Shown piece by piece: positions 22,883 to 55,530 of a DNA stretch of 64,000 nt. How positions within the stretch are numbered: position 1 is the first letter of the stretch; the number at the start of each line of letters is the position of its first letter. The DNA lies in contig OZ020257.1 of the NCBI GenBank assembly GCA_963971285.1, forward strand, positions 16,940,602 through 17,004,601, read 5' to 3'. The DNA comes from Astropecten irregularis (taxonomy: Eukaryota; Echinodermata; Asteroidea; Paxillosida; Astropectinidae). The notes beneath the pieces were generated by a model, which was not told the origin of the DNA, did no database searches, and saw only the letters and a program-made list of their open reading frames with translations. A program made the translations under genes and the position numbers.

Positions 22883-23613
22883 GGCCCGTATTTATACAAA
22901 CACGTTTTGCGTAACGATGTAAGTTACAAATAGAAATTACCTAAAAAACTCCTCTTTTTCCGTAATATTTATTTCAAATATTTCATACTTTTGTTAAATA
23001 TTACTCCCTAAAATTTAAAAATGCTTGTGAAGATGTAGGCCCTATATTTATTTCATTCGTTTATTTATTTCTATTTCCATGACTCGGCAAGGAATCATGT
23101 TATCATGTTCAAAAAGCCTGAATGGCGATCACTTTAATACCTGAAAAATCAACCACGCTTATGCATGTCCGCCTTTTCGCATACTCCATTAAAGTTTCAT
23201 ATACCTTCTTCCGAGGAAAAATATAGAGCCAACTTTAGAACCAAAATGTACTGAAACTCATGTTGTGCTAACTGCTCATAATTTCACAATACTTTAATTG
23301 CGCGACCCGCACAATCAAATTTGAAACATAGTTGAGGGTATTTATGCAAATTATCGAAACTAGTTTGGCGCGTGCATATTGACGTATTAAGTACGGTGCA
23401 CCCTTATGTTCAAGGAAACAAATAACATTAACATTGGTTTTTGTATGGATAAATGCGCGCCCGCTGATATTGTAATAACACACATGACATGAATATGTAT
23501 TACAGGTTGGTGAACGTCACCAGCTATTTCCAAATCGTCCATCATATCGGTTTCATTTAGTAGCGGTGTACACACGGCGACACCACGCACCGTTACACCA
23601 GAACACTCTAAGC

Positions 23614-24120
23614 ATGGCCACCTTCAAGACCGTTTCTGCTTTCTGCATTGCAGTAGCAATTCTCGAGTCCCAGTTTTTGGTGGCACCAGCCTGCATGCCG
23701 TGCATTAAGCCGTGGGTAAATTTCAAGAACCACTGCTATCGCCTGGTCAACGAGGCTAAGACCTTCTGGGACGCCGAGTCCCGTTGTCAGGGGTTCTCAC
23801 GCCCAGGGAGACCGTCTCACCTGGCGGCCATCAGAAGCCAGGCAGAGAACGACTTCGTCTTGGCTTTAATGAAGGCGGCGAACTTGAACACTTATGCCTG
23901 GATCGGCTACCGTCGTGCATCCTGGTCTCAGCCTTTCCTGTCCCTCGATGACAATGAGCCAATTACCTACACCGACTGGCTCAGTGATCGTCCCACAAGC
24001 CATTCTACCTACCTTTGCGTGGCGATGTATAATTCGCGTTCACAATGGTTTGACTTCTCGTGCACATATACTTACAGGATTATCTGCAAGATGCCGGACA
24101 GAAATTCAGCTGAACTGTGA
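23614..24120 (+). CDS. Secreted C-type lectin 2 (168 aa, intronless)
   Basis: It has the same organisation as lectin 1: a signal peptide (MATFKTVSAFCIAVAILESQ) and one six-cysteine lectin domain with AWIGYR at the WIGL position and the scaffold SLDDNEPITYTDW. The loop between DW and LCV is LSDRPTSHSTY, different from both neighbours, and the WND position reads WFD. No EPN or QPD is present. The 471 bp upstream of its ATG align without gaps to the region before lectin 3, so both probably share the same promoter. The 3' flank also matches. The likely role is secreted recognition or agglutination in immunity; the ligand is unknown. Confidence 0.88.
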   Translation: MATFKTVSAFCIAVAILESQFLVAPACMPCIKPWVNFKNHCYRLVNEAKTFWDAESRCQGFSRPGRPSHLAAIRSQAENDFVLALMKAANLNTYAWIGYRRASWSQPFLSLDDNEPITYTDWLSDRPTSHSTYLCVAMYNSRSQWFDFSCTYTYRIICKMPDRNSAEL

Positions 24121-25970: not shown

Positions 25971-26529
25971 TGCACATTCCAGATTCAGACATGTCTTCTT
26001 GATGAATTCATTCAAGTTTTATCAATTGTCCCATTTTAAAGCTTTATTTCTTTAGTTTGAAAAATCAACCACGCTTATGCATGTCCGCCTTTTCGCATAC
26101 TCCATTAAAGTTTTATATACCTTCTTCCGAGGAAAAATATAGAGCCAACTTTAGAACCAAAATGTACTGAAACTCATGTTGTGCTAACTGCTCATAATTT
26201 CACAATACTTTAATTGCGCGACCCGCACAATCAAATTTGAAACATAGTTGAGGGTATTTATGCAAATTATCGAAACTAGTTTGGCGCGTGCAAATTGACG
26301 TATTAAGTACGGTGCACCCTTATGTTCAAGGAAACAAATAACATTAACATTGGTTTTTGTATGGATAAATGCGCGCCCGCTGATATTGTAATAACACACA
26401 TGACATGAATATGTATTACAGGTTGGTGAACGTCACCAGCTATTTCCAAATCGTCCATCATATCGGTTTCATTTAGTAGCGGTGTACACACGGCGACACC
26501 ACGCACCGTTACACCAGAACACTCTAAGC

Positions 26530-27027
26530 ATGGCCACCTTCAAGACCGTTTCTGCTTTCTGGATTGCAGTAGCAATTCTCGAGTCACAGTTTTTGGTGGC
26601 ACCAGCCTGCATGCCGTGCATTAAGCAGTGGATAAATTTCAAGAACCACTGCTATCGCCTGGTCGACGAGGCTAAGACCTTCTCGGACGCCGAGTCCCAT
26701 TGTCAGGGGTTCTCACGCCTAGGGAGACCGTCTCACCTGGCGGCCATCAGAAGCCAGGCGGAGAATGACTTCGTTTGGGCTTTAATGAAGGCGGCGAACT
26801 TGAACCAACATGTCTGGATCGGCTACCGTCGTGCATCCTCGTCTCAGCCTTTCCTGTCCCTCGATGACAATGAGCCAATTACCTACACCAACTGGTACAG
26901 TAGTCGTCCCGCAAGCTACCTTTGCGTAAGAATGTATCATTTGGCTTCAAGTTGGCTCGACGATCCATGCTCATATACTCACAGGATTATCTGCAAGATG
27001 CCGGACAGAAATTCAGCTGAACTGTGA
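26530..27027 (+). CDS. Secreted C-type lectin 3 (165 aa, intronless)
   Basis: This third tandem copy starts 2916 bp after lectin 2. Signal peptide and scaffold are almost identical to lectin 2 (VWIGYR, SLDDNEPITYTNW, IICKMPDRNSAEL). Differences concentrate in the loop YSSRPASY (three residues shorter than lectin 2), RMYHLASS and WLDDPCSYTH. The WND position reads WLD and no EPN or QPD motif is present. It shares the 5' flank with lectin 2 and is probably regulated in the same way. It is intronless like its neighbours, so retroposition of an ancestor or loss of introns is possible, but no poly-A scar is shared that would show it. Confidence 0.88.
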   Translation: MATFKTVSAFWIAVAILESQFLVAPACMPCIKQWINFKNHCYRLVDEAKTFSDAESHCQGFSRLGRPSHLAAIRSQAENDFVWALMKAANLNQHVWIGYRRASSSQPFLSLDDNEPITYTNWYSSRPASYLCVRMYHLASSWLDDPCSYTHRIICKMPDRNSAEL

Positions 27028-33206: not shown

Positions 33207-36200
33207 TTACAACACTCAGCTGACATCTCACGGGACATTCGGAGCCCCTCCCATACCAAAGAAACCTCAGGTACCCCCAGAGGTTCAGTTGGAGACCACG
33301 CCCCCGGCAAACCGTAAAACCAACCTGAAAGAGATTCTACAGAACTTCGGAGAGAATACCACGGGTCACGGTATTGGCTCCATCGCCCGGTCTAAATCCC
33401 TGGTAGGCAAGGTCTTCTGGCTGACCGTGTTCCTGATCTCGCTCGGTTTTTTCTGCTTGCAGGGATCCGACGTGATCGTTGATTTCTTAGGCTATCCATC
33501 GACTACCAAAGTGGAGCTGATCACCAACACCAATCTGACATTCCCTTCAGTAACCATCTGCAACATGAACCGCTTCAGACGATCCAAGCTCCCTGGTACT
33601 CGGCTTGAGAAGTTGATAGAGGTGGACGGTGGACTCACAGATGACAGCGGCAATGAAGACTACGCCTGGTTTTTCGACTGGGATTCTGATTGGTATAACA
33701 AGTACACGTCTGAACACGGAGCCATGGTCAATAAAACTGTGAATGTATCTTCGGTACCTTCAAAATCTGTAACCCTTAACCCCACTGCTCCCGGCATGGA
33801 TGTTACAGACGACCCATTAGAGGCGAGCGATATGTCCACCCCATTCTCACCGGAAGAAATAACGATCACGACCGGGGAACCAATACAGACACCAGCCACC
33901 GGAAACCCCCACCGTAAAAAGCGATCGTTACCGGGTAGTCAGCATGACTCATGGAACTTCACCGACGAAATCAAGGCATGGGTCGAGCAGGAATGGAACG
34001 AAGACGACTACGAGGGTGACAAGTTTCATTTCTACTACGATGATTATTACGACTGGGACAACATATTTGACAAGGACGCCTGGAACCAATTTTATAATCA
34101 GTCCACTTCTCCCGACTACAGCGACTTCATCAGCACCATCAACCCAACGCGACAAGAGCTGAAAGACCTTGGTCACCAGGCCAAAAATTTCATTCTTCAG
34201 TGCACGTACGATAAGAAAGAGTGCAATTACAGGTAGGAACGTGAGCAGGGGTCAATTTCATAGAATTGCTTAAGCACAATATTTGCTTAAAGGTAGTATC
34301 ATACTTTGCTTTTTGTCAAAGAAGTACAGAATCATGGTCAAAAATATCAAGGAAGATACAGTCACAGCCATCTGTTACATTTTCAGTCCCATACGGTGCC
34401 CACTTTTTGAGAAAATCGTGAAAAACGGCCACAGTATTTCTTAAGTCTTTTTTCTTTTATTTTTGATCTTTTAAAAGATCAAAAAGATTTTCGGTCGTTG
34501 TTTTACTAATTTCTGGATAAATACACCATTTCAGGCGGGAAAATGTTAACGGTAGGTTTCTACTAGCATCATCTTCCTACTCTGAAAGTTATACGTAAAT
34601 TTGTGAACATTTCTGTTTTGGTTTCTTACCAAAGTTTGATACTACCTTTAAGCATGAACAGTCTTCGTTGATCAAACAGGATTGCCAACCAAATTTTCAT
34701 GTGATGTTTACTGCTTTTGACTTGTATTCAGCCATTGTTTGCTGAGCATAACATTCACAAGAAGTTTTTGCTGGCGTACTGATTTTATTTTATAAGGTTT
34801 TCGGTACTCAGCAGCTCTAACAAATTGGTCCATGATGGGCTAGTTCAATGAGCTTTCAGCCCGATGTCCGTAGACTGCGGCCTGCTCAAACAATGACGTA
34901 ATTTTTATCACACTAATTCCTCCAGTCAAGTGAACAATAAAGATTTTAGAAACAGCAAGTCAAATCTGAAAGATGTATGGAAGTTATAAGAGGAATCAAA
35001 AACAAGATTAAAACATTACGCATGTTTAATTGAGCGGTCGACTTTAATGGAAATATTGTTTACGATGTATTTATTGGAACGTACAATGTGGGCTAATGGT
35101 TTTTAGAGAGCTATTCAGCGAAGCAAATTTTCATGAGATGATCCTCAATTCGGCTTGAAAGCTCGTATTATCATCTTATTAAACATTCTGATGTTTATTA
35201 AAAGTTCATGATATTGATTCATAATTTATTAAAAGTAATTGAAATTATGTAGACGCACTTTATTCCTTTCTGTTGGCAGCGATTTCTATGAGTTTCAGAA
35301 CAAGGAATACGGAAACTGCTTCACATTCAATTACAATGAGGACGCAAAGTTGAATTTTACCACAAACTCCGGCGCACAGTATGGTGAGTATAATGTACTC
35401 ATATTAATATTCCATGTGCCTCTCGTGACCTCTTTTTGAGGAAGATACATTTCTTAAAGGAATCCCAGCTTTAGTTAACCCCTTTGATTCAAAAGGGGAG
35501 TAATGCCTACCGTCTGCACCGAGAGAAGCCAACTACCTCAGACCTGAGGTCCGGGGTAGGTTGGTACTACACACCTGATATAAGCCACTGTAGTCATTGT
35601 AACATTTCTCGACCAGGACATTAGTTGCTTGATAAGAATAACTATAGAATTGCGAACTTTAATTCACTGCTGATTGAAAATCTCCCCTTAAAGGGCTCCA
35701 CCTGACGCTGTTTCTAGAGATGCCCGAGTACATTGGGGTGTTATCCCCAGAAGCTGGGGCGAGGGTAGTCATTCATTCTCAGACAACACCACCCTATCCA
35801 GAGGAAGACGGAATCACAGTCGCCCCTGGCATGGCCACTAACATCGGTCTCCGACAGGTAGGTAAAACAAAACAGTCACTTCTGAAAGCCGAGAGTAACT
35901 CGCTCTTCGTGATTGTCACAAGTAAATAAAGTAATGTGTCTGTTCCTCTTTGGCAAAATATTCTTGAAAAGAAAATGCCTTTGTTCTAACATTGCATCCA
36001 CTTGCATTATTTAGATTTACGTTGAGCGTCTTGGAACTCCCTACAGTAAAGACGATTGTAAGCCATTCACGACAGGATCGTACTCCAGAAAGTCCTGCGA
36101 GAAGTTTTGCTTGCAGGAGGTTTTGTACGAAAAATGTAACTGCGTGACAGATATCTTAATGGAGAACAAGACTATGTGTAGCCCCATCAACAAGACTCAA

Positions 36201-37852
36201 CGTGAGTATCTGGTTTAAATTCTTAAAGACTGGTCTTATTTCGAGACTCTGATCTACAGGCATACTTGGAGGAGATAAACTAATCAAGCAAGAGAGATTT
36301 AACATAATATTCTTAAGGAAAAATCCTATTTTTGTTAACTTACTTCATAGTGCTACAAGGTTTTATAGATGTATTTTTTTCTTTTCTTTCACTGTCTAGA
36401 AATATGCAAACAGATGGTCGAGTACTTGGCAGACAACGGTAAACTGGACTGCGAATGTCCAGTGGCTTGCAAGTAAGTCAGCTGACAAACGCAAGAGTTA
36501 TTCACTACATTTTCATTTATGGTTCTGTATTAATTGTGCTCAAATCCCAAAGAAAAGAAAAGACCAGTGGTTGAGAAACCCTGCAGTATGTTACATTATA
36601 AGCCTGAATTAAAAGTGTATATTATTCTGTTTAGTCATTTAAGATTTTAATGCCAATTTCTAGATGTGATGATTTGAGAGACATTTGACCATTTTCTGCA
36701 GAAAATTATTAATCATTGCTCTTCATTTTACTGTCTTAGTGAGACGACCTATGTAAAAACAGTGTCATCGTCCATCTGGCCATCTGAAAGATATGAGGTA
36801 AAAATCTATTTTTTGTGCAGAAAGAATTTTTGAAGACTAATTTATTGTCAAATGTGATTTTCGTCCAAGCAGTATTATTTATTTATTTGTTTTCGTTTCA
36901 AATTTCTTCTTTGTTTTGTTTTTTTATTCAAGGAACATCTCCAGAAACGTCTGAAGCAAAATCCTGACAGTGGCTTCGCAGCAAAAATGGCTGAGAGTGA
37001 TGAAAGCACGAGGTGGGTTGAATTACATTTTGAAGACTTCAACAGCTCATTGCCTTGGTAATATAGGGTCATCCCTAAAACCAACACCATACTCACCAAT
37101 TTTAGACCAAAACACATATTTGGTTTCAGTATTAACTTTTGTCTACGTTTTTTGTTATCATGATTGAATCTCCATGTTTTGCAGGAAGAACATCGTCCGA
37201 CTCCGGGTGTATTTTGAGGAGTTGAACTACCAGTCCATCAGGCAGTCACCGATGTATACTGTAAGTGGATTCAGTTACATTGTCATACCAGAGAATAAAA
37301 AAAACGTGAAAAACTTAGCACAAACACCATCATTTAATCATGCTTTATTAAGCTGTGAATAATGCATTTTAAAACAAGTGAACGCTTCAATCAATTAGTT
37401 TTTACAATTCCACTTCACGCACAAGATGTGTTCTTACTGATGTCGTTTTTAGTCCAAAATCTGTACTTTTCCCAGCAGTGAAGTTTGCTTAACTTAATTA
37501 AAATTACGTATTTCACATCAAATTTGATTTCATCCATTTATTCGCAAAACCATGACTCTTCATCCATTCAGCCGTAATGACTGACTCCAAAAGCATCTAT
37601 ACTGATGTATATATAATGCTCAGTTTTCTACTCATCCAAATCATTGCACTAAATCTATTCCTTTGCTCATTTTCTCTATCTATCTCAAAGTTCCCCAACC
37701 TGCTGGGTAATGTAGGGGGCTTGCTTGGCCTGTACCTCGGCGTTTCATTCCTGACTCTCGTTGAGGGCGTCGAACTGCTGTTCACCATCGCCAAGTACCT
37801 CGTCAGAAACGCATTCTGCTCCAGGAAGGTCACACCCACGGCCGTAGCTTAA
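33207..37852 (+). CDS. DEG/ENaC channel subunit, gene B (9 exons found, first exon missing)
   Basis: Exons are 33207-34232, 35280-35383, 35694-35857, 36015-36201, 36400-36472, 36740-36797, 36933-37012, 37185-37260 and 37691-37852 (TAA). They give 643 residues plus an unfound 5' exon, which must end in phase 2 as in gene A. Hallmarks run in order: TTGHG gating motif, TM1 (VFWLTVFLISLGFFCLQ), FPSVTICNMNRFRRSK, EYGNCFTFN, SCEKFCLQ...EKCNC, DCECPVAC, YFEELNYQSI, and TM2 with GGLLGLYLGVS. It is a trimeric plasma-membrane Na+ channel subunit by family. The linker holds one furin-like site, RKKRS, and is much shorter than in gene A. Five downstream exons have exactly the lengths seen in gene A (164, 73, 58, 76, 162), so it is a direct paralogue. 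The pore triplet is G-V-S. Confidence 0.88.
34249..34680 (+). mobile_element. TTAA MITE (family A, copy 4) nested in a family F element
   Basis: 34286-34656 has both inverted ends (AGGTAGTATCATACTTTG and 'CAAAGTTTGATACTACCT') with TTAA on each side. It interrupts a 'TCAATTTCATAGAATTGCTT' sequence like the start of the element at 47408. Both are in gene B intron 2. Confidence 0.8.
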
Positions 37853-39645: not shown

Positions 39646-40062
39646 ATGGTGTCACCGCAAACCTATCATTTCAACCATGTATAGTTTCAAATCTTATAAA
39701 TCTGTATGGACAAATTAAGCATCACAGACAGAGCAAATAAAATGAAATCGTCTTCGTCAAAGAAATGGCGAAGCCCATGATCTGTTTGGAGGAATGCTTA
39801 AAATGCGCTAATCCTGTCACCAACTGTGCCACATGATCGATTCCTAGACTGTTTACAATTGGAGAAGCTTGACTACATTTGCACTGACTGACAAAAAATC
39901 GATCGCTTGAAGTCTTCGAAGAATTATAAGAAGTTGCGCTTAGGTTCGCCTGTGTTTCTCAAACACCGAACCTTGAACATTATAAATACCAGCCTTGCTC
40001 TGATCGGGGCCAGATTTGTTATTTTTCCCTGCTTCGTCATATTTGCTGTCGAGGGAGAAACG

Positions 40063-40716
40063 ATGGTTGTAGATGAGGAAAAGGGTTTTGCGGTGGCAGT
40101 GGCCAGCATGCTGGAGACCAGCTCAGCCCACGGCCTTCCCAACATCCAGCGATCCAAGACGCTCTTCTCCAAGACGGTCTGGAGTCTGCTGTTCTTCGGC
40201 AGCGTCTCCATTCTTGTCTTCCAGGTGGTGTCTCTCTTCCAGGCCTACCTGGCCTATGAGTACACTGTCAGCCTGGACGTCAGATTCGAGCGGTCGCTGG
40301 ACTTCCCAGCGGTGACCGTCTGCAACACCAACCCGGTCCGCAAGACCAAACTGGCCCAGGCTAACGACAACTTCCGCGAGAAATTCGACGTGAACTTCGT
40401 CCCTCCTCAAAAGATATCCGGGGTTGCCGGGATTGGTATCGGCCTTCCTGTTGGCCCATCGAGTGGAGGGACTGTCCAGTCTACGATCTCTCCAGGTACG
40501 GTTACCGGGAAGGGGTTGACGACAACAACATCTGCCCCGTCGGCTACGGGGAAGGTCAACGCCGGTGCCGGTCCACCGTCAGGCGGAGGTTCGGCGACTC
40601 CTACAACCAACATACTCACTGACGCTGTCACCGTACCAATCACGACAAGTGTGGAGCAGACGACATCGAGTTATGAGGTCCAAAACACAACATCGGATGC
40701 GGAAATTACAACAGAG
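40063..40716 (+). CDS. DEG/ENaC locus C/D: alternative first exon C (218 aa)
   Basis: ATG at 40063 (ACGATGG) opens 218 codons ending in phase 0 at ACAGAG|GTGAGA. It encodes the gating motif His23-Gly24 (SSAHGLPNIQRSK), TM1 (about 38-63), FPAVTVCNTNPVRKTK and a Gly/Ser/Thr-rich linker, and nothing downstream. No body exons follow until 47188, which is also phase 0. I infer it is spliced to the shared body, giving a 622-residue channel. The open frame runs upstream to 39907, but the match with exon D supports this ATG. It could instead be an orphan duplicate that is never used; the intact frame, donor and conserved motifs argue against that. Confidence 0.75.
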
Positions 40717-41885
40717 GTGAGATTTTTCTATCAAATATCCCCAATTGGTCGATCTAATCAGTGCTTTGCTCGCTTCGTGTGAGTCTACACAGTTATCTTT
40801 GAACTGAAATAATTCACCAACATTAAACATTGAGTGATTGTAAAAGACCAATACGCCGCATCACCTTTAATGGTTGATAAATAATTGTTGTTTTTTTTCC
40901 CAGCAGTTTATCATTTTAAACGTCAATTTGTGGCTTAGCGACCATTGCTCCTGAATCATAATAACGTTAAGCGCAATTTTGTCGCGCATGTTTCAAATTG
41001 GGCCGTGCGCAATTTTGAATTAAACATTCATTGTGGATTTTTGTTAACCATGGCATGTAGCTACCTTCAATTCAGTTAGGCCTGACTTAAAAACGTTGAA
41101 CACGGTCTCACAGGTTTTCTTAACAAACAAGTCACTTCGGACAAACGGTTAAAGATGGCGCACGTTAAAAGATTGCGCTCAACAATGATCATGAAGTTGA
41201 AGGTAGTTTCTACCCGAATGCCCGTTGAACCATTCCTCTATGGTTGAACGCTAAGCGAACCCGTGGAATTAACAAAAAAAAATGTCGGATGCCATCGTTC
41301 ACACAAAGAATGAACATAAGTGTCATGACGTTTATTGCTTACAAAATCAGTAATCAATTTCGCGTTTTGAAAAATGGCACATTGCTCTCGTGTATGTAAT
41401 TTAGTTAGAAACAATCCAGATCATTCAAGTCAATTCTAATACAAGATGGAAAACAAAGAGACCTAATAAACGGTCTAATTATAGCTGACATGAAGTTTCA
41501 TTAAAGTCCTGCTAACAGACCGAGGCCTATTATTAAGACTGTGTTGGAGTAATTGAATATCCCTTTTGGCTTCGTCATACATCTGTTGCATAATCCAGCT
41601 CTGAATCTATTTTGAATACCTGGGTTAGTCAACTTGAATTATAATAAGAAGGAATAGTGGAATGTGAGTGCTTAGACTGTATTTCAATTGGGACCAGTTT
41701 ACATGCTATTGAGGCGTATAGGCCTTCCCTTGCCGTGGTCATTGAACTGGTTTGGAGCAGTGCTACTGCCAGCCTTTGGCATGCATGAAGAAAGACAACT
41801 CGAGAGCATAACCTTCTTCCCTGTTGGTCTGTGGAGGGCCTGTACCTTCCGCCATGAGCTTTAACTATTTTATACTTCAATGGAA

Positions 41886-42115
41886 AATGAGCGACCATTT
41901 GAGTGAACATTCCGGGTCGGTTCTGGCTGGCATACCGGAGACCAGCTCGGCCGATAGCCTTTGAAACATTCAGCAATCCAAGACGCTCTTCGCCAAGACT
42001 GTTTAGATCTTGCCCTTTTCAGGCGTCACCATGCTTATTTCCATATCATTCTGGATTGTGTATACCCTGAAAACCCTGGACATCACGACGTCTAATAACA
42101 AAACATGAGACAGAG
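41886..42115 (+). pseudogene. Dead copy of the DEG/ENaC alternative first exon
   Basis: It is recognisable beside exons C and D: ETSSA, then NIQQSKTLFAKTV, then a donor ACAGAG|GTGAGC. Two in-frame stops (41962-41964 and 42004-42006), loss of the His of the HG motif (Asp instead), decay through TM1 and a large deletion of the FPAVTVCN part and linker make it non-functional. Confidence 0.85.
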
Positions 42116-42510
42116 GTGAGCTTGCAACCTTAAACATTTCCATGCTAGTTTACGGTCAAACATCCCCTATGGAACTGAACTGGTGCCCGACAGAGGGCGT
42201 TTTGAGATTTGAAAAATAAATGGCTGCCCCAGTTTTACATAGCTGAGATTGAAGTTCATCATATTAACTTGCAAACACTATGTTTATAACTGCTATATAC
42301 TGCTTTTTCCATATTGTCCGTCTGTGGAATTCTTCACAACATATCAATTAATTATTAGTGTCGAAAAAAGCCAACTACAAAAAAAAAATGAACAAAACTT
42401 AACTCGCGTCCTTAACCCTAACCCTCTGCACCTACCACACAAGACAAGAGCTGCCTACCACACATTACCACAGTCTCCACAGGGGGACTTAAATATAAAA
42501 AATATATAGG

Positions 42511-42600
42511 CGTTACCTCAGTTTAGTACATTCAGGGTAGCTGGTACCGAGACCCACTCACCCAGTCGTATTTAGGTAAGATAGTAATACTGTAATAATT
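42511..42600 (+). repeat. Partial copy of the foldback at 61731
   Basis: 'TTACCTCAGTTTAGTACATT' and CAGGGTAGCTGGTACC match 61734-61775. Only one arm is present. Confidence 0.65.
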
Positions 42601-43147
42601 TTCAAAAGGCTAATGGTAACTGAACTAATGAATTACACTTGAGTGGAAGTGTCATCAAAAGGTAAGTGCACAATTACGCCTTAAAACGCTCTGTAATAAA
42701 CTGCATTTCCCTTGAGACATCCGTGCAATTTTGGTCCCATCCCACCATGGCACGGTTTCACGTGGTTCGCGTACTTAATACCCCAAATGGCATTATTTCA
42801 ATATCAACCAATCAACTGTCAGGTAATTTGCAGTCAGACAATAGGTAGATAATGGCTCTCCAGAGCCCTTTGTTTTTAATTGCGAGTCACGCGCATGCGT
42901 ATCGAGCCAAAATAGTGACGCATGATCAAGCAGTGCATGGGTGTTGTCGGCTGGTTTGGCGGATCATTGCTTACGAGGTTGGCTATGAAACACACTTATA
43001 AAAACAGACCTGTCAAAATCGACACATCCAATTTTGCAGTCGAGGCCCTTGCGTCCAAACGAAAGAAGCACACATACCTAACCACCCACACTAAATCGCT
43101 AAGAGTTGCCGTCGTCGTCGCAGTGTAGGCCTAGTAGTGGAGTGAAA

Positions 43148-43720
43148 ATGGGTGGCGGGAAGGATGGACATTTCGGGCCTGCCCTGGCCAGCATGCTGGA
43201 GACCAGCTCAGCCCACGGCCTTCCCAACATTCAGCGATCCAAGTCGCTCTTCGCCAAGGCTGTTTGGACGGTGCTCTTCTTGTCAAGCGTGACCATGCTC
43301 GTTATTCAGGTCGTCCATCTCTTCGACGTCTTTCTAGCTTATGAGTACACAGTCAGTCTGGACGTCAAATTCGAGCGGTCGCTGCCCTTCCCAGCGGTGA
43401 CCGTCTGCAACACCAACCCGGTCCGCAAGACCAAACTGGCCCAGGCTAGTGATGAGTTCCGTGAGAGATTCGACGTGAACTATGCTCCTCCACAAAAGGA
43501 GAATGATCATAGCCCTGGTCCGACCGGCAGTGCCCCTGGTTCGACAGATGCAGGCGCATCCATGGGTTCCCTCTCGACACCCCCTCCGACAGGACATGTA
43601 CCCGTCCCTGATGCGACGACCGTCAGTGCCCCTGGTGCGACAAATGCAGGCACACAAGCGGACCCCGCAACAGTCGAGCCAACGGTTACTTCTTGGACCG
43701 ATCAGAATGCAACGACGGAG
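43148..43720 (+). CDS. DEG/ENaC locus C/D: alternative first exon D (191 aa)
   Basis: ATG at 43148 opens 191 codons ending in phase 0 at ACGGAG|GTAAGT. It has the same content as exon C: His23-Gly24, TM1 (VWTVLFLSSVTMLVIQVV), FPAVTVCNTNPVRKTKLAQA and a Pro/Thr/Gly-rich linker. The linker contains a duplicated motif, SAPGSTDAG and SAPGATNAG. Joined to the body at 47188 it gives 595 residues. Being closest to the body, it is the likely default first exon. C and D share motifs almost exactly in the first 110 residues and differ in the linker. Confidence 0.8.
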
Positions 43721-44046
43721 GTAAGTCTGGAAACGCACAGTCACCACCGTCTTTTAACGGTCAAACTCTGCGAATTAGTTTGCATGCTTTTCTGTATTAA
43801 AGTCCGCTGATAATTCCTCCTGTCACTTTGGCACGTCGTCTCGGGTTCGAATCCTGTCCGCCAAGCACTTAATCGTTGTTGTTGTTTTTCCTCGCTTTGA
43901 ACGCAAGGGACTTGCAGTTCTTCTGACCAGACAAGCATGGCTCTTTATTGAATAACCGGTTTGGTACAAGTAAAATATTTTATTGTAGGCCTAGACGTTC
44001 TCAATATGGAATAACGTGTAGCACAAAACGACCACCAACCAAATCT

Positions 44047-44299
44047 TAAAGTTAGTATCATACTTTGGTAAGAAACCAAAACAGAAATGTTTACAGATTT
44101 ACCTATAACTCACAGGGTATAAAGATGGTGCTGATAGAAACATACTGTTCAGATTTGTTCTGCCTGAAATGCTGCATTTATCCAGAAAATAGTAAAATCT
44201 AATTTTCACAGATGACTGTTGCTGTATCTTCCTTGATATTTGTGCGCATATGAATCTGTATTTCTTTGACAAAAACCAAAGTATGATATTACCTTTAAC
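44047..44299 (-). mobile_element. TTAA MITE (family A), copy 5, internally deleted
   Basis: 'TTAAAGTTAGTATCATACTT' and 'AAAGTATGATATTACCTTTA' ends with TTAA flanks. The middle third is missing. Family A fragments also occur at 44346-44395, 45455-45620 and 46445-46500. Confidence 0.8.
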
Positions 44300-44924
44300 G
44301 TCATTTCGTATACTTATGTCTAGATACAACGTGGCAGGTCTTAACATTTTAACGGTATGTTTCTACCATCACCATCTGTATATCCTGCAAGTTATTACCA
44401 TTTCCGCCTTTATGTGTTGAGATATTTTGAGCAAACTTAATGTAGCGTATGCCAGGTGAGAAAGGGTGAGAAAGGATTACCCAACGGGGCAAGGGGACTT
44501 TGAGAGAGAGACAAGGGAAGAATGCCAGTTCTGGTGAACACACATAATTCTTTCAAATATCAAGGTACATGTACATGTAATAATCTTTTTCAAATAACAT
44601 TTTCCATTGTGTTTGACTGTAAATAATTATGTCAAGGTGAATTCTTCACGGAGGGATGCGCTGAATGTTTTGGGGGCACAGGTTTTCAGAGCATGTTAAT
44701 GTTTTATCTCTGTTTATTTCCTGGATGTCTCGTTCTCCAATGAATTGATCAAACCAAGAAGACATAATTTATGTAACGCGCTGTATTTTTCTTATTGTGA
44801 AGAGATGCAATGTAACATGGCGTATGTACATAGCTTATGAAACGGTGGATAATGGCGCTTACAGTGCTTTGCTATCGCCAAATTCAATTGGGCGTAATAG
44901 AGATTTTGTGTTTAGGGCGCCCCT

Positions 44925-45284
44925 TTTCATTACTGTGGTTCTCATTTCCGACCGACCCATATTTTGGGCTCCGACCGAAGAAAAAAACTTTTTTTTGCCG
45001 CTGACCCTGTCCAGAATGACATAATATAAAATCAAGAAAAAAAAGATTAAAATTCCAGAATTTCTGGAGACAAATTTTCCCAATAGGCCTACAATAGGCC
45101 TACACAGAAATAATAATATTCAAACGAGATTACAGTGAAAACAATGGACATTTCTCATCATTTTCTTTAAGTTTTTGTGTATTCAGGCAGATTTTTTTTC
45201 CACCAAACGTTTTTTTTTTCGACCGACCAACCCTCCCTCAAGGTGAAAAAGAAATGAGAACCACAGTATTAAAAAGGGGCGCCC
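44925..45284 (+). mobile_element. Long-TIR MITE (GGGCGCCCCTTTT ends)
   Basis: Inverted ends read GGGCGCCCCTTTT...ACTGTGGTTCTCATTTC and the complement ending AAAAGGGGCGCCC, with GACCGACC motifs inside each arm. TTA lies on both sides. It sits in the long intron after first exon D. No ORF is present. Confidence 0.8.
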
Positions 45285-46853
45285 TTATATGTTAACTGTA
45301 TAATACATAATTGGTCAAGGTCACAGAACAGCACTAACGCTTTGTATGATCCAACATGTTCAAGATAACCCACTTGTGAATATTTGAGCTCACTCGGATA
45401 TCTGAGTCACGAGAAAATAGCGAAAACCCGACTAAATTTTTCTTATAAAACAAAAAATGGTTTTGATCTTACCCCGAGATCAAAACGGCTTTTGGTTTTT
45501 GTTTGACTAATTTCCTAATACATACACAATTTCAGGCGGAAATGTTTGTTTCTACCAGCACCATCTTTATATCCTGAAAGTTATACGTAAATCTGTGAAC
45601 ATTTCTATTTGGGTATGGAGCATATATGATTTGCAAAGATGTGCGTTTTGGCTGAATTTGGTACTTAAACAGAAGTGAAGGTCTTAAACTTCCTTACAGA
45701 CTTTGTTTCATGTACCTATTTACGATTTTTTCATCTGGATAGCAGAAATATACGGCCGAAATAATCTTGCCCCCCTCCGAATCCTTCACGGTTACCACAC
45801 GCTTTCGAAATGCTACTAAAATATAAAAGACTCAAAATCTTGATTTCCTTGAAAAACCCAGCATCTGATGAACCAAGATTTCCCATGGTGACTGTTTGCA
45901 CTGTTAATGAACTGTTGAGTCCATTTAAACTCTAATAATTTGTTTTTGGAGGCCTTGCAAATCCTGTACGCTGCCATAATTTAAGCCATCAGCGAAAGGA
46001 GCTATTTCTGTTTAATGATGGCTTAACCAGCCCGTGCCATGACGTGATGGGAAGATCGTACCACTCCGTGCCATGACATGGAGTTCCAAGGGCTTTGTTG
46101 GCTTAATTAAAGCCCTTTCAATAGAAAGCCATTAGGGAAATGGCTAAGTAAATTGAAGAGCAAACTTAGAGAGACATCACTAATTGATTTTTACTAATCA
46201 CGGTGACCGTATATTAGTGCAGTAGTTTGGTCTCTAGAAATGGCTATAATGGATTTTTTCTTATATCAATATTTCCTTTGTGCTCGCTATCTGTTGTTTG
46301 CTGTGTAATTTAGTTCTGCATTGAACTTGTGTGCACTAACGGAAGGTTGATACTTTATGGGAATGCTTCGTGGGAAGAGGTTCTGACGTCATAATTGGGA
46401 AACTGCGTGTCAAAAAGATGCCATTGTTTTCGCTTTGCTTTATTTAAGGTAGCATCATGCTTTGGTTTTTGTCGAAGAAATTGCAGATTCATGGGCAAAA
46501 AAACCAAGACAGGTTTATTAAATATAAGACAGTTTACAATAAAAATACAAAACAAATAAACACAAAATTAAGATGAAGTAAAATAAAATAAAACACCAGG
46601 AGTAAAGAATAATATTGCACAATTAACGCGTCAAAAATATACATTGAGTTGAGTTATTGTGGCAATGAAATTGTGCTTACAGCATTATTTGCAGGTCTGT
46701 TTAGAACTGGGCTGGGTTTTTGTTTTTAATTCGCTTTCATGTCATTTCATGGAGAGTTCTTTTTGATCTAAGATTCATAGAATGTGTGCTTTTTGATTTG
46801 ACAAACCGTTGGTTAAATTGTATGATTGTAATGCAAACATTTGTACAGGGCCA

Positions 46854-46968
46854 GGGGTCGATTTCACGAAGCCCTACGATCGATCGTAACTCGAGTTACG
46901 AAGGATAACCCATCGTAGGGGGCCTATCCCATGTAGGGTTGCAATGCAAAGAGTTTGGTGAAAACCCA
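46854..46968 (+). mobile_element. Palindromic MITE (family B)
   Basis: 'GGGGTCGATTTCACGAAGCC' and 'CGATCGATCGTAACTCGAG' are clear; the right end is degraded. It is about 220 bp upstream of the shared-body acceptor at 47188. Confidence 0.75.
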
Positions 46969-47187
46969 GAGTGGTTAATGCATGATCAAATTTCGGCAAT
47001 TGAGCAGCCAATTTCATTTTCACGCATTCGTGTTGACGTGATTTTGCCTCCTCGAAATGGAATGGCGCAGCGTTTAAACTGTCCGTTCACTTGCTGAAAA
47101 TGACCGGGAAAACCTATATTATAAGAGATTAAATTGGAATACCTTTGGGAATGTTATTTGTCTTCCTCTTCTTCTCCCATCATGCAG

Positions 47188-50100
47188 GCAAACGTCCCGA
47201 GCTGGGAGGACCGGGAGAAGGGCGATTTCTTCAAGAAGCAGGACGACACCTACCTACTCCAGGAGAAGCTCATCTCACAGCTGGCCAACATGACAGAGGG
47301 GGAGAGGCAGGAGATGGGTCATGATCTGAATGACATGCTCCTGAAGTGCCAATGGAAGGGATTCCCATGCTCCCCGACGTAAGAATTGCTGTCCACTCAC
47401 GTACCCTGGGGCCAATTTCATAGAGCTGCTTAGCACAAAAAAATTGCTTAGCACAAATATAGCTTGCCCAATAAAACAAACTACCATTGGAAATTTCATT
47501 TGATATCCATGGACTGTGAACAACAGCCAAAGAACAATTGCAAGTGATACACAACACACGGAAATTTGTTTGTAAATCCTGTTTTTACTAAGACAGAAAT
47601 GTCATGCATAGCGAATTTTTGTGTTAAGCAGCTCTATGAAATTGGCCCCTGACCTGTAGTTATGGTGGTGGGGGGGGGGGGGGCAGAAGGGGATGCCACG
47701 ACAAGCAACCCACACCCCCACCCACCAAAAAAAAAACAACTCGAATCTGACTTTACAACTACATGGCCCAATTTCATGGAATCCGTTACGGCTTATTTTT
47801 GTGCTTACGGACACTGCAACGCATGAAATCTATTTCATATGGAATCCGTAAGCAAGACTTTCAGTTAGCGAAACATTTCTAGTGTTACCGTGATTGTTTT
47901 CTGCTAACGCGCTGTCATATGCATTCTGCAGAAAGTTTTTGCTTAGCGTAGCGAGAAAGACAGCTCTCCTGTGAAAATACGCTAACCGTAACCAAAAAAG
48001 TCTGCTACCATAAGCGAAGATTGTTTTGATAACGGAAACGGATTCCATGAAATTTGGCCCTGGGCTACTCTACCTTCAGTTCCATTTAGTTCAATTTTAA
48101 TTCATATTGAAAGAGCATAAATGGTGTATTGCCTTGACCTATACATCACGTCAAATTATTGTTTGGTATATCAATTCCTGGATGTATATCTGATCTGTCA
48201 TCTGACTGTGTTTATTATCCCAGCAGTCGATCATTTCAATCCATTTGCCTCTAAACCAAAAGGGGAATGATAACAATTACTGCTCACCTTGGTGACTTTT
48301 TTATGGGAATTCATTATTTCAAAGCCACTCAGTAAGTTTAAGGGGGCTCTCTCATTTAAACTGAGGATAGGAAGTTACTTACACATTGTTCTTTTAGGGG
48401 AAATGGGTCACAATTATGTTGAAATGAGGGAAACCTTCACGGTGGAGTGGCAATGCCGTGTTTCTCTGAAGGGATCAACCCCCTGAAAATCATGACACAT
48501 GTTTTTTAATTAGATTTTGTTTTTCTCATGCCCTATACTTTTATAGGAATTTTACGTCCTTCTATCACTACAAATTCGGCAACTGTTACACCTTCAATTC
48601 GTTCACATTTGGTGATTCGCTGACGACAAGCAGACCTGGACCATTGTATGGTAATATTATGTATTTCGAGTTGCTTTATTTCTTTCAACAGGCTTGTAAT
48701 TATTTGTGCATAAATCCCTAAGGCGAAGCTGTATAAGTAAAATGAGGGATTTGATATTATTGTGCGCACCGGTTGGAAAAGTACATTGAAACCAGTTCTG
48801 TACACCAATACTAGACTTCAGAGTTTCTTTCTTGTACAAATAAGTCTGGAAAGGGGAATTCCAAGTCCTCATCAGAGTAGTTTTAAAATACCCTCTCCCC
48901 AGGATAAGGGTAAGGCTGTTTGACCACTGTCAAAACTTCAGAATGGTCTCCCATTTAAGCATGATATTTACATGTCCATCATACCTTGGGAGTAGCAATG
49001 AGATTCAATCCATCAATTTAGAATATCTAGGAGCCAAGACATCAATTTATTGCTGTCTCTCCTTGTGTAGTTTCCGACAAGCAACAACAATGGCGCCAAA
49101 ATGAACATTAAACAACTTGAAGTGGAGAGGAAATTGATATTGTATGGTACGACTGAACTCATTAATAATTATGTTGTGTTACCGTCTCAAAAAGATGTCA
49201 TTTGAAGTAGCTGCTGCAAGCATGCATGGCTTCCAAATTCCGTTTCCCACTGTTGTTGTTTTGCTTTATACCTCTTCGTCTTCACCCCGTGTAGGCCTGG
49301 TATTGGAGTTATTCCTGGAGCAAGACCAGTACATGCCTGAGTTGACGGAGTCTGCTGGGTTTAGGGTGGTGGTCCATGACAGAGAGACAATGCCCTTCCC
49401 TGAAGACGAGGGTATCTCCATCTTCCCTGGTTCCAATACGGCCATCAGTGTCCGGGTGGTGAGTATAGGCTATGGCATTCCAAGGGTTCGATTCAGTCTA
49501 TACTGACTCATGAACCAGGGGTCGATCTCACGACGCCCTATGATCGGTCGTAGCTCGAGATACGAAGGATAACCCATCGTATCCTTCGACTTCTACGAAT
49601 AATTATTCTATGTATCATATTCCTACGATTGATAGTAAAGTATGAAGAGTTTGCTGAAATCGACCCTAAGAGTGCTAACTTTTATACAGGGCCTTTAGCT
49701 TGAGGCTAGGCTTGGAACTTATTTCGTTACCACCATTTCAGACCCCAAAACGAAATGAAGGGATTGGGCCACATGACGAAGCCGATGAAAGGATCCAGCT
49801 TGGCCACGTATCTCAAGCCCTTCATTCCATTTGGGATACAAAGGGGCGTGTTGTAAAATAATTCACAAGAGGCTGGCCCAAGCCTCATTTTGCGAAGATT
49901 ATTCCATGACAGTCACACGAGCTATAGTCGTCCACGAAATTATCAATTTTCAGTATTTACTCATTATTCGGTTGGAGGAAAATTCGGGCGATTCCAAATC
50001 GGTGCGCCAGCAAGAGTTTGCCAGGCGTCGGCCAATCACAATTCACGGAATTCATCAGCCAAATAACTGATGAAAGGTTCGACAGATTCCGCGCATTGTG

Positions 50101-53100
50101 ATTGGCCAACGCGTTGCAAACTCTTGCTGGCGCACTTTTCGAAATCGCTCGTATTGTGAATACTTTTCGTCCAGTTGTTAAATATCTTAATAATTTTTAA
50201 GCTTCGTACAAAGTACTCGCATGAGGTTTATATGAACCGGGCTTACGTTTATGCATCTATACGTTTCATTTGTGTGTTTCCTCTCACCATTATAGATGAC
50301 TATTGAGCGCCTTGAATTACCTTATGGAAACTGTTCAATGAAGATCATAAAGGATGATGATGGCAACATCTTTCAGCAAAGATACAATGTCTCCTATAGT
50401 TTAAAGGTATGATAATGCAGAAATCTTGTCAAGACCACAATTACCGTAAAATACTGTGTTTAGTCCGTCAAATATGTTTTACCATCACTTGTTGAAACTA
50501 TGTGTGTCAAATTCCTTTTGTTTGATTACTCAACCCAAGCGATTTTATCTCGTGCAAATGATGCGAAAGATTTTGAATAATATTATACAATTGTAATGCG
50601 CAAAAGTGTGCAATATCTAAACATTAAACATAATTCATAACGTTCTCTTCACTCGGAAAAGATGATATGTTTCAATCATCGCCATTTATGATTTTAACTT
50701 TTTCAAGAGATGGCATACAAGACTATATAGCCTTTTATAGATATTGAATTTGATTTCTGGTCTAATGACTTCAGAGATTGAACCAGATGTAGACATTTTT
50801 GAAAGTGGATATCTTATCGTCATTTTATTTTATTTTAGAAATTTTCTCGACGCGATGAAATGTAGCCTAAAAGGTTAGGGGTGTATTTCTTCTTTTGCAG
50901 GCATGTGAACGGAACTGCTATCAGAAAAAAGTGATCGAGCAGTGCAGTTGTTTCGATCCTCATTATCCGAATTCAATGGATGAAGTTGTCTACCCGTGCG
51001 ATATCGATGATGAAACAGGTATAGGCCCGCGTGCATAAATTAATCGATTGACCGGTATCGATATTTATTCACAATCAACCACATAAAGTATCGATACTTC
51101 TATTTTAAAAGCATCCTTCGATTAAATTTTCCCTTGTTGAAATCCTTGTTCAGCCAAAATCAGTAAGAACAAAATCTCAAAGAAACTAACACACATAGAG
51201 AGTCGCAAATTCCTTATGGCTACGTCTAGTGTTGTGTTAAAGTAATTTGTGTCGATAGACTCCACTCGAGTCGCAATCAGTTTGGTATGACTCTTTTTCG
51301 CTCTTGATTTCAGCTCAGACGTGCATGACACATCTAGATAGAGCATTTCAGGAAGGGAATCTCTCCTGTGACTGCTACCAACGCTGCAAGTGAGTCAACT
51401 TACGGTCCACAAACTTTTCACACCGTTTGTATTTGTTGTCTTTGGGTTCTTGTTTGCGTGAAAACACAAGTTAAAGGTACTGTAACAGTACAGGATTGGT
51501 AACATACCCAAAAAGAAATGTTTACAGATTTACGTAACTAGGTACCAGGATATGAAGATGATGCTGGTAGAAACATACCGTTAAAATATTTCCGCCTGAA
51601 ATGGTGTATTTATCCAGAAATTAGTAGTTTCTATAGTGACTCGAGATGTCCGATTGAGCTCAACTTTTTACAGGTTTATCATTTCATGTACAGGCTGGAT
51701 CAAACAAAGTGTGAGTGCTACTCTTTGACCTTTACCAATCATGTATTATACCTTGATTATACCTTTATAGACCATGAATACACTTTTAATTCAGTGTTTA
51801 TCGTGTCATGATGTTTCAGCGAGACTTCTTACCTCACATCAACCAGTGCCTCCCTATGGCCAGCTGACCAGTTTCAGGTATGTCTTCTCATCACCTCCGT
51901 ATAATACCGCCTAACCTAAGGAAATTCCCGCGTCATACGAAAATGTTCATCTCTTCCTTATCATCTCTCGAATGTAGCCCCTCCATTTTCCCCCTGACAT
52001 AAAATAGCAGAGATGTAAATACTTGAACGGATCCAGTTATACTGGACACTTTTTACAGGTAACTTAGAGGCACCAATTTACACTCCATGCATTCTAGAAT
52101 ACTTTGGTACCTTAAAAGACCTTAATTTTCTTCCCGTGTCTTAAGCTTACCATTCTAGAAAAATTAGGGGACTGAAAGGTGACGGTATTCAGGCTTGAGG
52201 ATCAACTGGAAGCTATTCCCTGCCAATTGTCTCTTGGGCAAAGAAGTCAGGGGCATTAAGAAGCTTGTATCCGATTAGGAACAATATATTTTAATATTTT
52301 GTTCCAAACTTGAGACCTTGAGTTAAACTTCAAAATATTTCTCGACATGTGTTGGCCGCCCTTGTCCCCATAAAAGTGAACAAAAAAGCAGACTTCCAAA
52401 CCAATTAGCCTAGCACAAAATATTAAAGTTTATCTTTTGTGTGTCATTCTTCAGGATAAACTGTTTCGGGACATGAACGACAGGAACCAAGACATCCGAC
52501 GTCAACTCAAAGGTTCATCGCCAAGGGCCTGGGTCTTGTAAGTCCACTATTCTGTCCTTAGTTTTCATCTCCATTGTCTTTCTATCTTCACGGGGTGTGA
52601 AGTTCAGAAGATGAAATGCAACACACCCGTGGCCTAGTGGAATTCGATAGAGATACGGGCATAGTCATACGAGATCCGGAGCATACAGGTTTAAACACAT
52701 GTGAATTATAGACGACCAGAGGAAAGGGGACAGACTGTCAGGGCAACGTTATAGAAACAAACAAACAAACAAACATAACGCCCTAACAAAATAATAAACA
52801 AGCAAACAAAAAATAAACACCCTAAGCAGAACCTTCTCACAAGCCCCAGGATACAAAAAGGATGAACAGTTATGTGATTGGTCGTAAGTTTTAACCTGTT
52901 TCTGTATCCCTGTCGATAGGCTTTTGAGAATGATCCTCAATATTTAGATTGAACATTTAGATACATAACCCAGGGCGATCAGAAGTTGATGAACAATAAA
53001 CAGTTTGATTTCAGAAGTCGATTAATTTACTTGTATTGGGCAGTACTCAATTTATTTTACTAAATTTATTGTACCAAATTTAGCTGTTTTTAATTTGGTC

Positions 53101-55342
53101 AAGGAGGACAGAAGGATTGTTTTCACCTTGAATATGAGGCACAAATAGGTCTATTGTTAGTGTACATATATAGTTACGTATCGTGTCTTCTGTTTGAATT
53201 AATAAAACTTGTCTGGGTTTTTTTTGTAAACAAAATCAGGAAAAACGTCGCCAGACTGGAAGTGTTCTTTCAAGAATTCAACTATCAATACATAAAACAG
53301 TCGCCTGCTTACACGGTATGTATCCTCTCGCTAATTGCAACTCCACAATTAACATTGAAGGTCGTATAGGGGATTACGGTTATTGTAATTACAAATTGTG
53401 ATTACGAAATTGAATATCCTTGTACACGGTATCAGGTTGTGTCATGTGAATCTGGCCATCTGCCCAAATCCCATGATCTTCCCTTCCCCTCACCTATCGG
53501 CTTGGTCTGGCTAGATAATGACGGTTCCCCACTGACAAATAACCCACTGTATTTGGGCCTCAAACTTTCCACAAATCTCTAAATAGACATCTCAGAATGT
53601 GTTTCCTTCAGTGGTACTATAGCAATGCTTAAATACCCACCTTAAGACGCCCTCAGGGGGAAATCAATGGTTCTGCATACTCGAGGGATCGAAGAATGTG
53701 CAAGCTCTCTAGATTATTACCGTAAATCAAATATGTCCATGCTCATCCTTGATATATAACTGTCTGAGCAGGAAGACAGTCTATTTACCCCCCACTTAAT
53801 ACTACAAACAGCGATAAACAAACAAAAACTGCAGTTGCCGACAATGTAATCCATGTCTAGCAATGACCGTTTCAACGCAACCATAATGATTTCAAAACTG
53901 AAATAGAACCTCTGTGACGTCATCATTCTGAGAATCATGGTTTAATAATATTACACGCTCGACGGTTCAATATAATACTCAACAAAACATGCAAAAAAAC
54001 ACCCGCGCTTTTGTCGTGATTGTCTGGTAAATTTACAAACTATTTCATGAACTATACATATAAAAAATAATACAGCTTTAAGTTAAATACAGTGATACAA
54101 AATAATAATAAGTGGGCAACATGGCGACAACTTTTGAAGGTAATTAAAAAGTTCTCAGAACCAGGAAAAGAACTTTTTGATTTTGCTTGTACAATCTCAG
54201 ACTACATGTATATTAATCAAAGCCATGTTTTTACACCATGAGTCCAAAAGTTTTACAGTAGAAGTTAAAGGGCGCCCTCATTGTTTTAACAATGGCCAGG
54301 CATGGCAAAGAGGTCATAATGTATGGGAGCTGCATCAATTTTTCTGAAAGGCAATATTTTAAAATCTGATATTTCAAATAGGGGGCACATCTGGGATTAT
54401 GGGGCACAGACATGGCACCCCCTCCCCCATATTTACACCATTTACATCACTGCATGCTCCTCCCATTACAAATAAATAAGTACAAATGAAAAACTGGCAT
54501 GATTTTGATCACATCTCAGCTTTCAAGTAAAAAGTCAAAAGCAAGCAAATCCTCACCTTAATTTGTCATAAAAAGGAAAAACAAAACATTTACATTACTC
54601 ACTTGCATCTTGTACACTGTGACAGCTCATAAAAACCTGATTAACTTCATTGATCACAAGGGCAACTGACTGAATTTAGAGTCATTGCAAAGTGAATAAA
54701 GACAAATCAACTTGAGCGGGATTCAAACCAGCGACCTCCTGAACACGCAACAATGCAGCATTGTTGCGTGTATGGATGAAATGATCTCTGAGATATGGCG
54801 GTGTGTGCTTGGTTTCAAGGCTTCTGACTGGCAAACAAACAAAGATAATTGACTATTGGGGACACCACTAACGTAGGGCTGGATGGCTCAGTTGGTAGAG
54901 CGCCTGTATGGTATTCAGGAGGTCGTGGGTTCTAATCCCGCTCCAGTCAATTTTTCTTTGTTCACGTTTCTTTTCTTCCCTAAAATTGAGCAAAATCATG
55001 CAAGCAGACACTCCAACCACGGAGGAAGCAAGCCCCTCCTTCCTTCATGCTCCACCCACCCAATACAAATTCAAAATTTTCCACCATCGTCTTCTTTTTG
55101 AATTTCAGCCCATTGGTTTGGCCAGTGACATCGGCGGTCAGCTGGGACTGTGGCTAGGCCTGTCCATTCTGACGGTCTTTGAGCTGTTTGAGCAGGCCGG
55201 CACCTTCGGAGCGATCGTCTTTGCCAAACTCTGCAGCATGCTCCGCTGCGGAGACAAACCCCAGACAAGGAGAAGCTCCAAGGTGCAGAGGGTCAAGATA
55301 TTCCCGACCGACGACGAGGGAATTTCCTTGCCCAAATATTGA
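47188..55342 (+). CDS. DEG/ENaC locus C/D: shared body (10 exons, 404 aa)
   Basis: Exons are 47188-47378, 48547-48650, 49295-49458, 50296-50406, 50901-51018, 51314-51389, 51820-51877, 52455-52537, 53240-53315 and 55109-55342 (TGA). They sum to 1215 nt in phase. The body has no start codon of its own and begins in phase 0, so it needs exon C or D. It encodes the rest of the extracellular domain (KFGNCYTFN, then ACERNCYQ...EQCSCF, then DCYQRC), FFQEFNYQYI, and TM2 with GGQLGLWLGLS, followed by a basic tail (KPQTRRSSKVQRVK). Compared with genes A and B there are two extra introns, one in the post-TM1 linker and one splitting the Cys-rich exon (111 + 118 nt). No furin-like site was seen. The pore triplet is G-L-S. 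The nearest clear AATAAA signals are far downstream (56755 and about 57000). Confidence 0.88.
47408..47650 (+). mobile_element. Foldback element (family F)
   Basis: 'GGGGCCAATTTCATAGAGCT' and 'AGCTCTATGAAATTGGCCCC' are exact inverted ends; CTTAGCACAAA repeats follow the left arm. It begins 30 bp after a donor of the C/D body. A G-run at 47670-47685 follows. Confidence 0.85.
47765..48060 (+). mobile_element. Foldback element (family G)
   Basis: GGCCCAATTTCATGGAATCC and 'GGATTCCATGAAATTTGGCC' are inverted ends about 300 bp apart; 'CCGTTACGG' and 'GATAACGG' extend the arms. Confidence 0.8.
49518..50160 (+). repeat. Family B, C and E elements side by side
   Basis: A family B element (49518-49666) is followed by a family C piece (49700-49832, 'GAGGCTAGGCTTGGAACTT') and a family E block with opposite-facing halves (about 49985-50145). 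All are in a C/D body intron. Confidence 0.7.
51472..51690 (-). mobile_element. TTAA MITE (family A), partial
   Basis: 'GTAGAAACATACCGTTAAAA' and 'CGCCTGAAATGGTGTATTTA' match other copies. Only the first half is present, starting TTAAAGGTACTG. Confidence 0.7.
54700..54962 (+). repeat. tRNA-derived SINE just before the last C/D exon
   Basis: The A-box region TGGCTCAGTTGGTAGAGCGC, the B-box region GGTTCTAATCCCGC and the tail 'CAATTTTTCTTTGTTCACG' are all present, preceded by the SINE body (GGCGGTGTGTGCTTGG). A reverse tRNA-like piece (54715-54740) is fused at the left. It ends about 150 bp before the acceptor at 55108. Confidence 0.85.
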
Positions 55343-55392: not shown

Positions 55393-55530
55393 GTTCATTG
55401 AATAGTGAACAAAGAAAAATTGAATGGAGCGGGATTCGAACCAGTAACCTCATGAATACCATACAGGCACTCTACCAACTGAGCCATCCAGCCCTACGTT
55501 GGTGGTGACCCCAATAGTCAATTGTTCTTT
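55393..55530 (-). repeat. tRNA-derived SINE just after the C/D stop codon
   Basis: This is the same family in reverse: 'GAACAAAGAAAAATTGAATG', 'GCGGGATTCGAACCAGTAAC', 'CTACCAACTGAGCCATCCAG'. It lies about 50 bp after TGA and so within the 3' UTR. Confidence 0.85.

Follow-up and report, generated by a model that had tools for sequence, protein, structure and literature searches.

In human SCNN1A, alternative first exons alter the N-terminus of the protein. The vertebrate pairs ASIC1a/1b and ASIC2a/2b combine one body with alternative front ends that carry the N-terminus, the HG motif, the first transmembrane helix (TM1) and part of the ectodomain, and the accessible parts of two sources describe these variants as differing in the first third of the protein, the whole finger included (PMC11339754, PMC9612379). 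The literature searched, which covered few subscription papers, gave no hint that a DEG/ENaC gene of an echinoderm or any other invertebrate uses alternative first exons. Here, a stretch of 64,000 nucleotides (nt) from the sea star Astropecten irregularis was analyzed (the window; C21:16940602-17004601, contig OZ020257.1, in an assembly of 475.7 Mb and 168 contigs), in which two first exons, C and D, lie upstream of one shared DEG/ENaC body. With a probability of roughly 0.7, this is a single gene of the DEG/ENaC family whose two alternative first exons are both functional and have a promoter each.

Layout of the gene and its two predicted products

The features of the gene are listed below in window coordinates.

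39981..39988, + strand: candidate promoter of C, TATA-like TATAAATA, C start codon 82 nt downstream
40063..40716, + strand: first exon C, with N-terminus, HG motif, TM1, beta-1, alpha-1 and a 101-residue linker rich in S/T/P/G/A; donor GAG/GTGAGA, phase 0
40100..40158, + strand: HG tract of C, likely conversion tract, 58/59 nt identical to D 43185-43243
40284..40363, + strand: beta-1 tract of C, likely conversion tract, 78/80 nt identical to D 43369-43448
41887..42115 (start approximate), + strand: decayed third first exon, with 2 in-frame stops and a damaged HG motif; end set by donor-like GAG/GTGAGC
42997..43004, + strand: candidate promoter of D, TATA-like TATAAAAA, D start codon 151 nt downstream
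43148..43720, + strand: first exon D, same parts as C, linker of 74 residues; donor GAG/GTAAGT, phase 0
47188..47378, + strand: shared body exon 1, finger helices alpha-2/alpha-3; acceptor phase 0
48547..48650, + strand: shared body exon 2
49295..49458, + strand: shared body exon 3
50296..50406, + strand: shared body exon 4
50901..51018, + strand: shared body exon 5
51314..51389, + strand: shared body exon 6
51820..51877, + strand: shared body exon 7
52455..52537, + strand: shared body exon 8
53240..53315, + strand: shared body exon 9
55109..55342, + strand: shared body exon 10, TM2, C-terminus and stop

The coordinates, phases, donors and residue counts given by an earlier sequence-only reading of this DNA were re-derived and were all correct. 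Exons C (654 nt) and D (573 nt) each start with an ATG and are open throughout, and the ten body exons (47188-55342) are bounded by GT/AG splice sites. Joined to the body, the two intact coding first exons are in phase and give proteins of 622 and 595 residues, respectively, each with a single stop at its end. As had been proposed, both first exons encode the N-terminus, the HG motif, TM1 and a linker, and each alone matches Pfam ASC (73.3 and 74.8 bits, cut-off 23.6). The body was also said to have no start codon, which is right at the upstream edge of its first exon: the in-frame ATG at 47182 sits in the acceptor, outside the exon. Within the window this body is indeed the only one for C and D, and the neighboring genes A and B supply the remaining body matches there. 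The description as two competing first exons holds in that both are intact, but the copies number three, the decayed one lying at ~41887-42115.

In the proposed mechanism, a transcript would begin at either C or D, and its phase-0 donor would be joined to 47188, yielding a 622- or a 595-residue subunit. Both subunits would share alpha-2/alpha-3, the palm, the thumb and the pore helix TM2; most of the difference between them would lie in TM1, the linker and the first 13 residues. The alternative promoters put forward by the sequence-only reading are still the simplest explanation, with a TATA-like element at each exon and a good fit to the sequence tests, but the two transcripts themselves are deduced from sequence.

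A tRNA-Thr (GGT) was observed at 54877-54949, inside the last intron, and a weaker inverted tRNA match at 55421-55493, just 3' of the gene.

Comparison with ENaC, ASIC and starfish orthologues

The complete predicted proteins matched Pfam ASC with 324 and 333.7 bits (cut-off 23.6), and the HG motif before TM1, the cysteine-rich ectodomain and TM2 are all present as invariant alignment columns. The best sequence matches in the PDB were ENaC beta and gamma (210.7 bits for ENaC beta, 173.9 for ASIC1). For the fold, a model of the Patiria orthologue stood in for this protein; it matched ASIC1a, FaNaC and ENaC, of which ASIC1a and FaNaC ranked first with ENaC close. The predicted gene product is a DEG/ENaC subunit. 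Its closest proteins are from Patiria miniata (60% identity), Acanthaster planci (60%) and Asterias rubens (53%), which cover 99-100% of the D form; these orthologues (P0001-P0003) have the same domain order as the A. irregularis gene, and the disordered linker was shown for Patiria.

The parallel drawn earlier to ASIC1a/1b and ASIC2a/2b is apt in kind, as far as the accessible parts of the sources go (PMC11339754, PMC9612379). However, the ASIC cassette is described in the part available of PMC9612379 as spanning the whole finger, whereas the border of the sea star cassette falls within the finger, in the long disordered linker that precedes alpha-2/alpha-3; the sea star gene thus lacks the ASIC-type border, which lies where the finger ends. 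The sea star locus also carries a decayed third copy and a conversion-like mosaic.

To place the border in the protein, the AlphaFold2 model of the Patiria orthologue was used (mean predicted local distance difference test score (pLDDT) 79.8, predicted template modeling score 0.71). Residues 123-205 of this model have a pLDDT <50 and are flanked by the finger helix 101-107 and by helices from 211 onwards. The end of exons C and D aligns with residue 205, the last of the disordered stretch, and therefore cassette and disordered linker end together. This border is likely to sit at a site that is tolerant of change. Serine, threonine, proline, glycine and alanine make up 66% of the 101 linker residues of C and 69% of the 74 of D, with one N-glycosylation sequon in each, and the linker is probably disordered and glycosylated.

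An alignment gap suggests that the linker occupies the position of the gating release of inhibition by proteolysis (GRIP) tract in the finger of ENaC (SCNN1A/B/G). In contrast to ENaC, the linkers of C and D have no furin sites at this position: no arginine, and hence no furin motif, was found in either of them, and the three starfish orthologues have no furin motif either. A role of the linkers as a furin-site switch was therefore rejected. According to the accessible part of PMC8791634, GRIP furin tracts are absent from some vertebrate ENaC lineages as well.

Exons C and D both look functional

C and D share 85% DNA identity over 300 nt, and over 104 aligned codons the synonymous divergence (dS) is 0.39 and the non-synonymous divergence (dN) 0.12, which results in a dN/dS of 0.31. 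By block, dN/dS is 0.31 in TM1 and 0.13 in the alpha-1 tail. Both exons are about equally similar to the starfish orthologues, with 67 (C) and 70 (D) of 103 residues identical to Patiria, 70 and 70 to Acanthaster, and 64 and 64 to Asterias. This also applies to TM1 taken separately (14 and 17 of 31 residues for Patiria, 15 and 15 for Acanthaster, 15 and 14 for Asterias) and to four remoter echinoderm relatives (55 and 54, 51 and 49, 44 and 46 of 100, 45 and 45). The identity, the dN/dS and these near-equal scores indicate that C and D are more than chance reading frames. Their branch lengths in the protein tree are 0.12 and 0.14.

When neutral decay of a 654-nt copy of C was simulated at 0.195 changes per site, half the silent distance between C and D, and with an assumed indel rate, 6.7% of 4000 runs stayed free of stops and none stayed free of both stops and frameshifts. 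Donors were scored with a matrix built from the window's own 25 donors, among which that of C beats 19 and that of D 24; between 39001 and 47187, only 5 of 467 GT sites, C among them, score at least as high as the C donor. TATAWAW occurs 5' of each start codon, at 39981 for C and at 42997 for D. The chance of finding one within 30-200 nt of a random position is 0.077, a figure for a motif that was selected after the sequence had been inspected. On this evidence both exons look alive.

A decayed third first exon

A repeat search recovered the first exon three times. The middle copy starts at ~41887, aligns with D without gaps over 131 nt from the start codon (96/131 identical) and remains detectable up to ~42039, with the donor-like GAG/GTGAGC at 42115. 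Its translation reads MSDHLSEHSGSVLAGIPETSSADSL, stop, NIQQSKTLFAKTV, stop, ILPFS, and the HG motif is lost. No recognizable linker was found in the relic and no TATAWAW within 200 nt upstream of it. Judged by these lesions, the relic is a picture of the fate of an unconstrained copy at this locus.

A mosaic of similar and divergent blocks

The sequence-only reading stated that C and D differ in TM1, in the linker and in the context of the gating motif. The first two differences are real, and the full set comprises the first 13 residues, TM1, the end of alpha-1 and the linker; the third was not seen close to the motif, where HG and the residues on either side of it match fully between the two exons. 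At silent sites, dS is 0.08 in the HG block, 0.97 in TM1, 0.12 in the beta-1 core and 1.16 in the tail, with few sites per block. The two similar tracts are marked by runs of 46 and 62 nt that are identical in C and D.

The split of the 104 codons into blocks was made after the pattern had been seen, but permutation tests need no such choice. They gave p-values of 0.012 and 0.007 for uneven divergence in 81 degenerate codons with the same residue (15 changed), and of 0.0004 and 0.0001 on all 312 nt (49 changed). In the HG tract the relic differs from D at 12 of 59 positions and C at 1 of 59 (Fisher p 0.002), while at the start of TM1 the numbers are 7/35 and 9/35. Codon bias is a poor explanation of the mosaic, since the GC content at third codon positions is alike in all blocks (0.77-0.87). 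Diversification of TM1 at the protein level is expected to raise dN, not dS. The pattern would be explained most simply by gene conversion of the HG and beta-1 tracts between the two exons.

In TM1, C matches D at 17 of 31 residues and D matches Patiria equally at 17 of 31. Outside the tracts, D thus resembles C no more than it resembles the Patiria orthologue, and the duplication could be an old one. Trees were built from the N-terminal block (103 columns) and from the 48 columns lying beyond the identical tracts, and neither orders the split of C and D relative to that from the other starfish.

Origin of the exons and of the linker intron

A genome-wide search with the D protein gave 30 matches, of which 27 are at ≤40%; the remaining three are D itself, C at 56% and the relic at 57% over 47 residues. 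As all other first-exon matches in the genome are at ≤40%, exon shuffling from another gene was rejected. A whole-gene duplication was not found with blastn (E 0.01), by which the similarity of C and D is confined to 40100-40413. The three first-exon copies look like products of local tandem duplication.

The sequence-only reading had also proposed that exon shuffling became possible through the gain of an intron in the linker, having correctly noted that in the sister genes A and B TM1 is fused to the next segment in one exon. A minus-strand DEG/ENaC cluster 1.1 Mb away (C21:15827000-15887000, L017-L022) was informative in this respect. It holds about five related genes, with about five body sets and five TM1 exons that apparently pair one to one. 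Two of its loci, L022 and L018, have a phase-0 linker intron five codons before the same tryptophan as in the C/D gene (acceptors ag/GAC GTT TAC CAA GAC TGG in L022, ag/GGT TAC CCA GAA GAT TGG in L018 and ag/GCA AAC GTC CCG AGC TGG in C/D). L017 has a phase-0 acceptor at the linker position and lacks the tryptophan; L020 and L021 lie outside this count. Because at least two paralogues share position and phase of the intron and the exons look locally duplicated, a gain of the intron in the C/D gene that enabled shuffling was rejected. The intron very likely predates the duplication and is not a novelty of this gene. A different intron of the C/D gene, 50406/50901, is absent from A and B.

Alternative readings of exon C

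Several points weigh against two functional first exons. Each of the three starfish orthologues is present in one form only in the protein collection, so that the arrangement with two front ends may be confined to this lineage or C may be unused. Both splices to 47188 are predictions from the DNA. Furthermore, if C is weak, its HG and beta-1 blocks could still look healthy through conversion from D; TM1 lies outside these blocks.

These points feed the most serious alternative, an unlikely one, in which C is an unused duplicate with an open frame that is not meaningfully transcribed or spliced, and D is the sole working first exon. The single form of the orthologues, the death of a sibling copy and possible refreshment by conversion would all fit with this. 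However, C is conserved about as well as D, also in TM1, with a dN/dS of 0.31, it has a strong donor and a TATA-like element, and neutral survival of its frame is improbable.

It is far less probable that C yields its own truncated product of N-terminus and TM1, or serves mainly as a promoter or enhancer: an unspliced C frame does meet a stop 21 codons beyond the donor, but donor and phase have been kept and the window's one close body lies downstream in phase.

We give still less credence to C as a broken-off piece of a second gene that has, or had, its own body elsewhere. In favor of this, the DEG/ENaC family in this genome is large, with at least 85 exon matches. However, no second close body was found within the window, and the 10 kb on each side gave matches only at E >0.1 (L024 includes 200 N). 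In the sampled paralogue loci no match exceeded 54% over ≥30 residues (shorter ones reached 78% over 18 and 63% over 27), and 20 further exon pieces, a chosen sample of the genome's family exon matches, gave 18 matches, of which the best over ≥30 residues reached 57% and the best shorter one 70% over 20. For the window, the flanks and the sampled paralogue exons this is a strong but incomplete negative, and the restriction of the blastn similarity to the first exons also speaks against a second gene.

Least credible is a splice from C to the in-frame acceptor-like AG at 43122-43123, just before D, by which the protein would receive two TM1 helices. Between 43124 and the start codon of D the reading frame is open and in phase, but the architecture is absent from six aligned relatives and the pyrimidine tract, judged by eye, is weak.

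Under the preferred reading of two functional first exons, local tandem duplication would have produced the exons, of which one of three copies died, and gene conversion would have kept the HG gate and the beta-1 blocks alike while TM1 diverged. As HG, beta-1 and TM2 are kept in both forms, both should form pores, with TM1 and the linker as the parts that would tune gating, surface delivery or the choice of partner. If both forms exist, another deuterostome branch of the DEG/ENaC channels has arrived at the solution of ASIC1a/1b, using a shorter cassette, and two channels with the same gate and pore helix and a different TM1 would provide a natural test of TM1, together with the linker, in gating and assembly. 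The mosaic would then show conversion protecting the gate while the helix varies. A more speculative extension, which we regard as possible yet doubtful, is an array of TM1 cassettes in which units of promoter and exon are born, die and are partly homogenized. HG gate and beta-1 would be locked to the body, with TM1, linker and promoter free, and in sea stars promoter choice would set the membrane helix; the C/D pair would be older than the split of the family, with one form annotated per species.

Neighboring genes and further observations

Gene A (8737-14456) encodes a protein of 692 residues if read from the first plausible ATG; gene B spans 33207-37852 with its start codon further upstream. 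The TM1 exon of B (33207-34232) has no start codon before TM1, and a further 5' exon is therefore likely. Relatives of the neighboring genes in Patiria (P0001/P0121/P0131), Acanthaster (P0002/P0122) and Asterias rubens (P0003/P0137) suggest a linked cluster across sea stars.

The long finger insert of gene A contains two furin-like motifs, RRRR/S (9577-9588, residues 281-284) and RRRR/N (9622-9633, residues 296-299), and gene B has one furin-like stretch, RKKR/S, in the same insert. Similar pairs, 10-25 residues apart, were observed in the three best matches of gene A (starfish P0121, P0122 and P0045) and in the sea urchin proteins P0123, P0124, P0125 and P0130. Among 68 proteins scanned for R.[KR]R, the bounds of the insert could be set in 57 and not in 11; at least two motifs were present in 24 of the 57, one in 10 and none in 23, in counts that take in a motif beside beta-1 that is probably no cleavage site. 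The C/D orthologues have no such motif. In PMC8791634, as far as accessible, tandem GRIP tracts are tied to vertebrate land life, and the word "invertebrate" does not occur in the main text. The invertebrate furin-like pairs in gene A and its relatives may outweigh the finding of two first exons in worth.

Three closely similar tandem reading frames are present at 19735-20355, 23488-24120 and 26404-27027, which we take to resemble secreted C-type lectins. Within an intron of gene A lies a reading frame (13261-13518) that presumably resembles a fragment of a retroelement reverse transcriptase.

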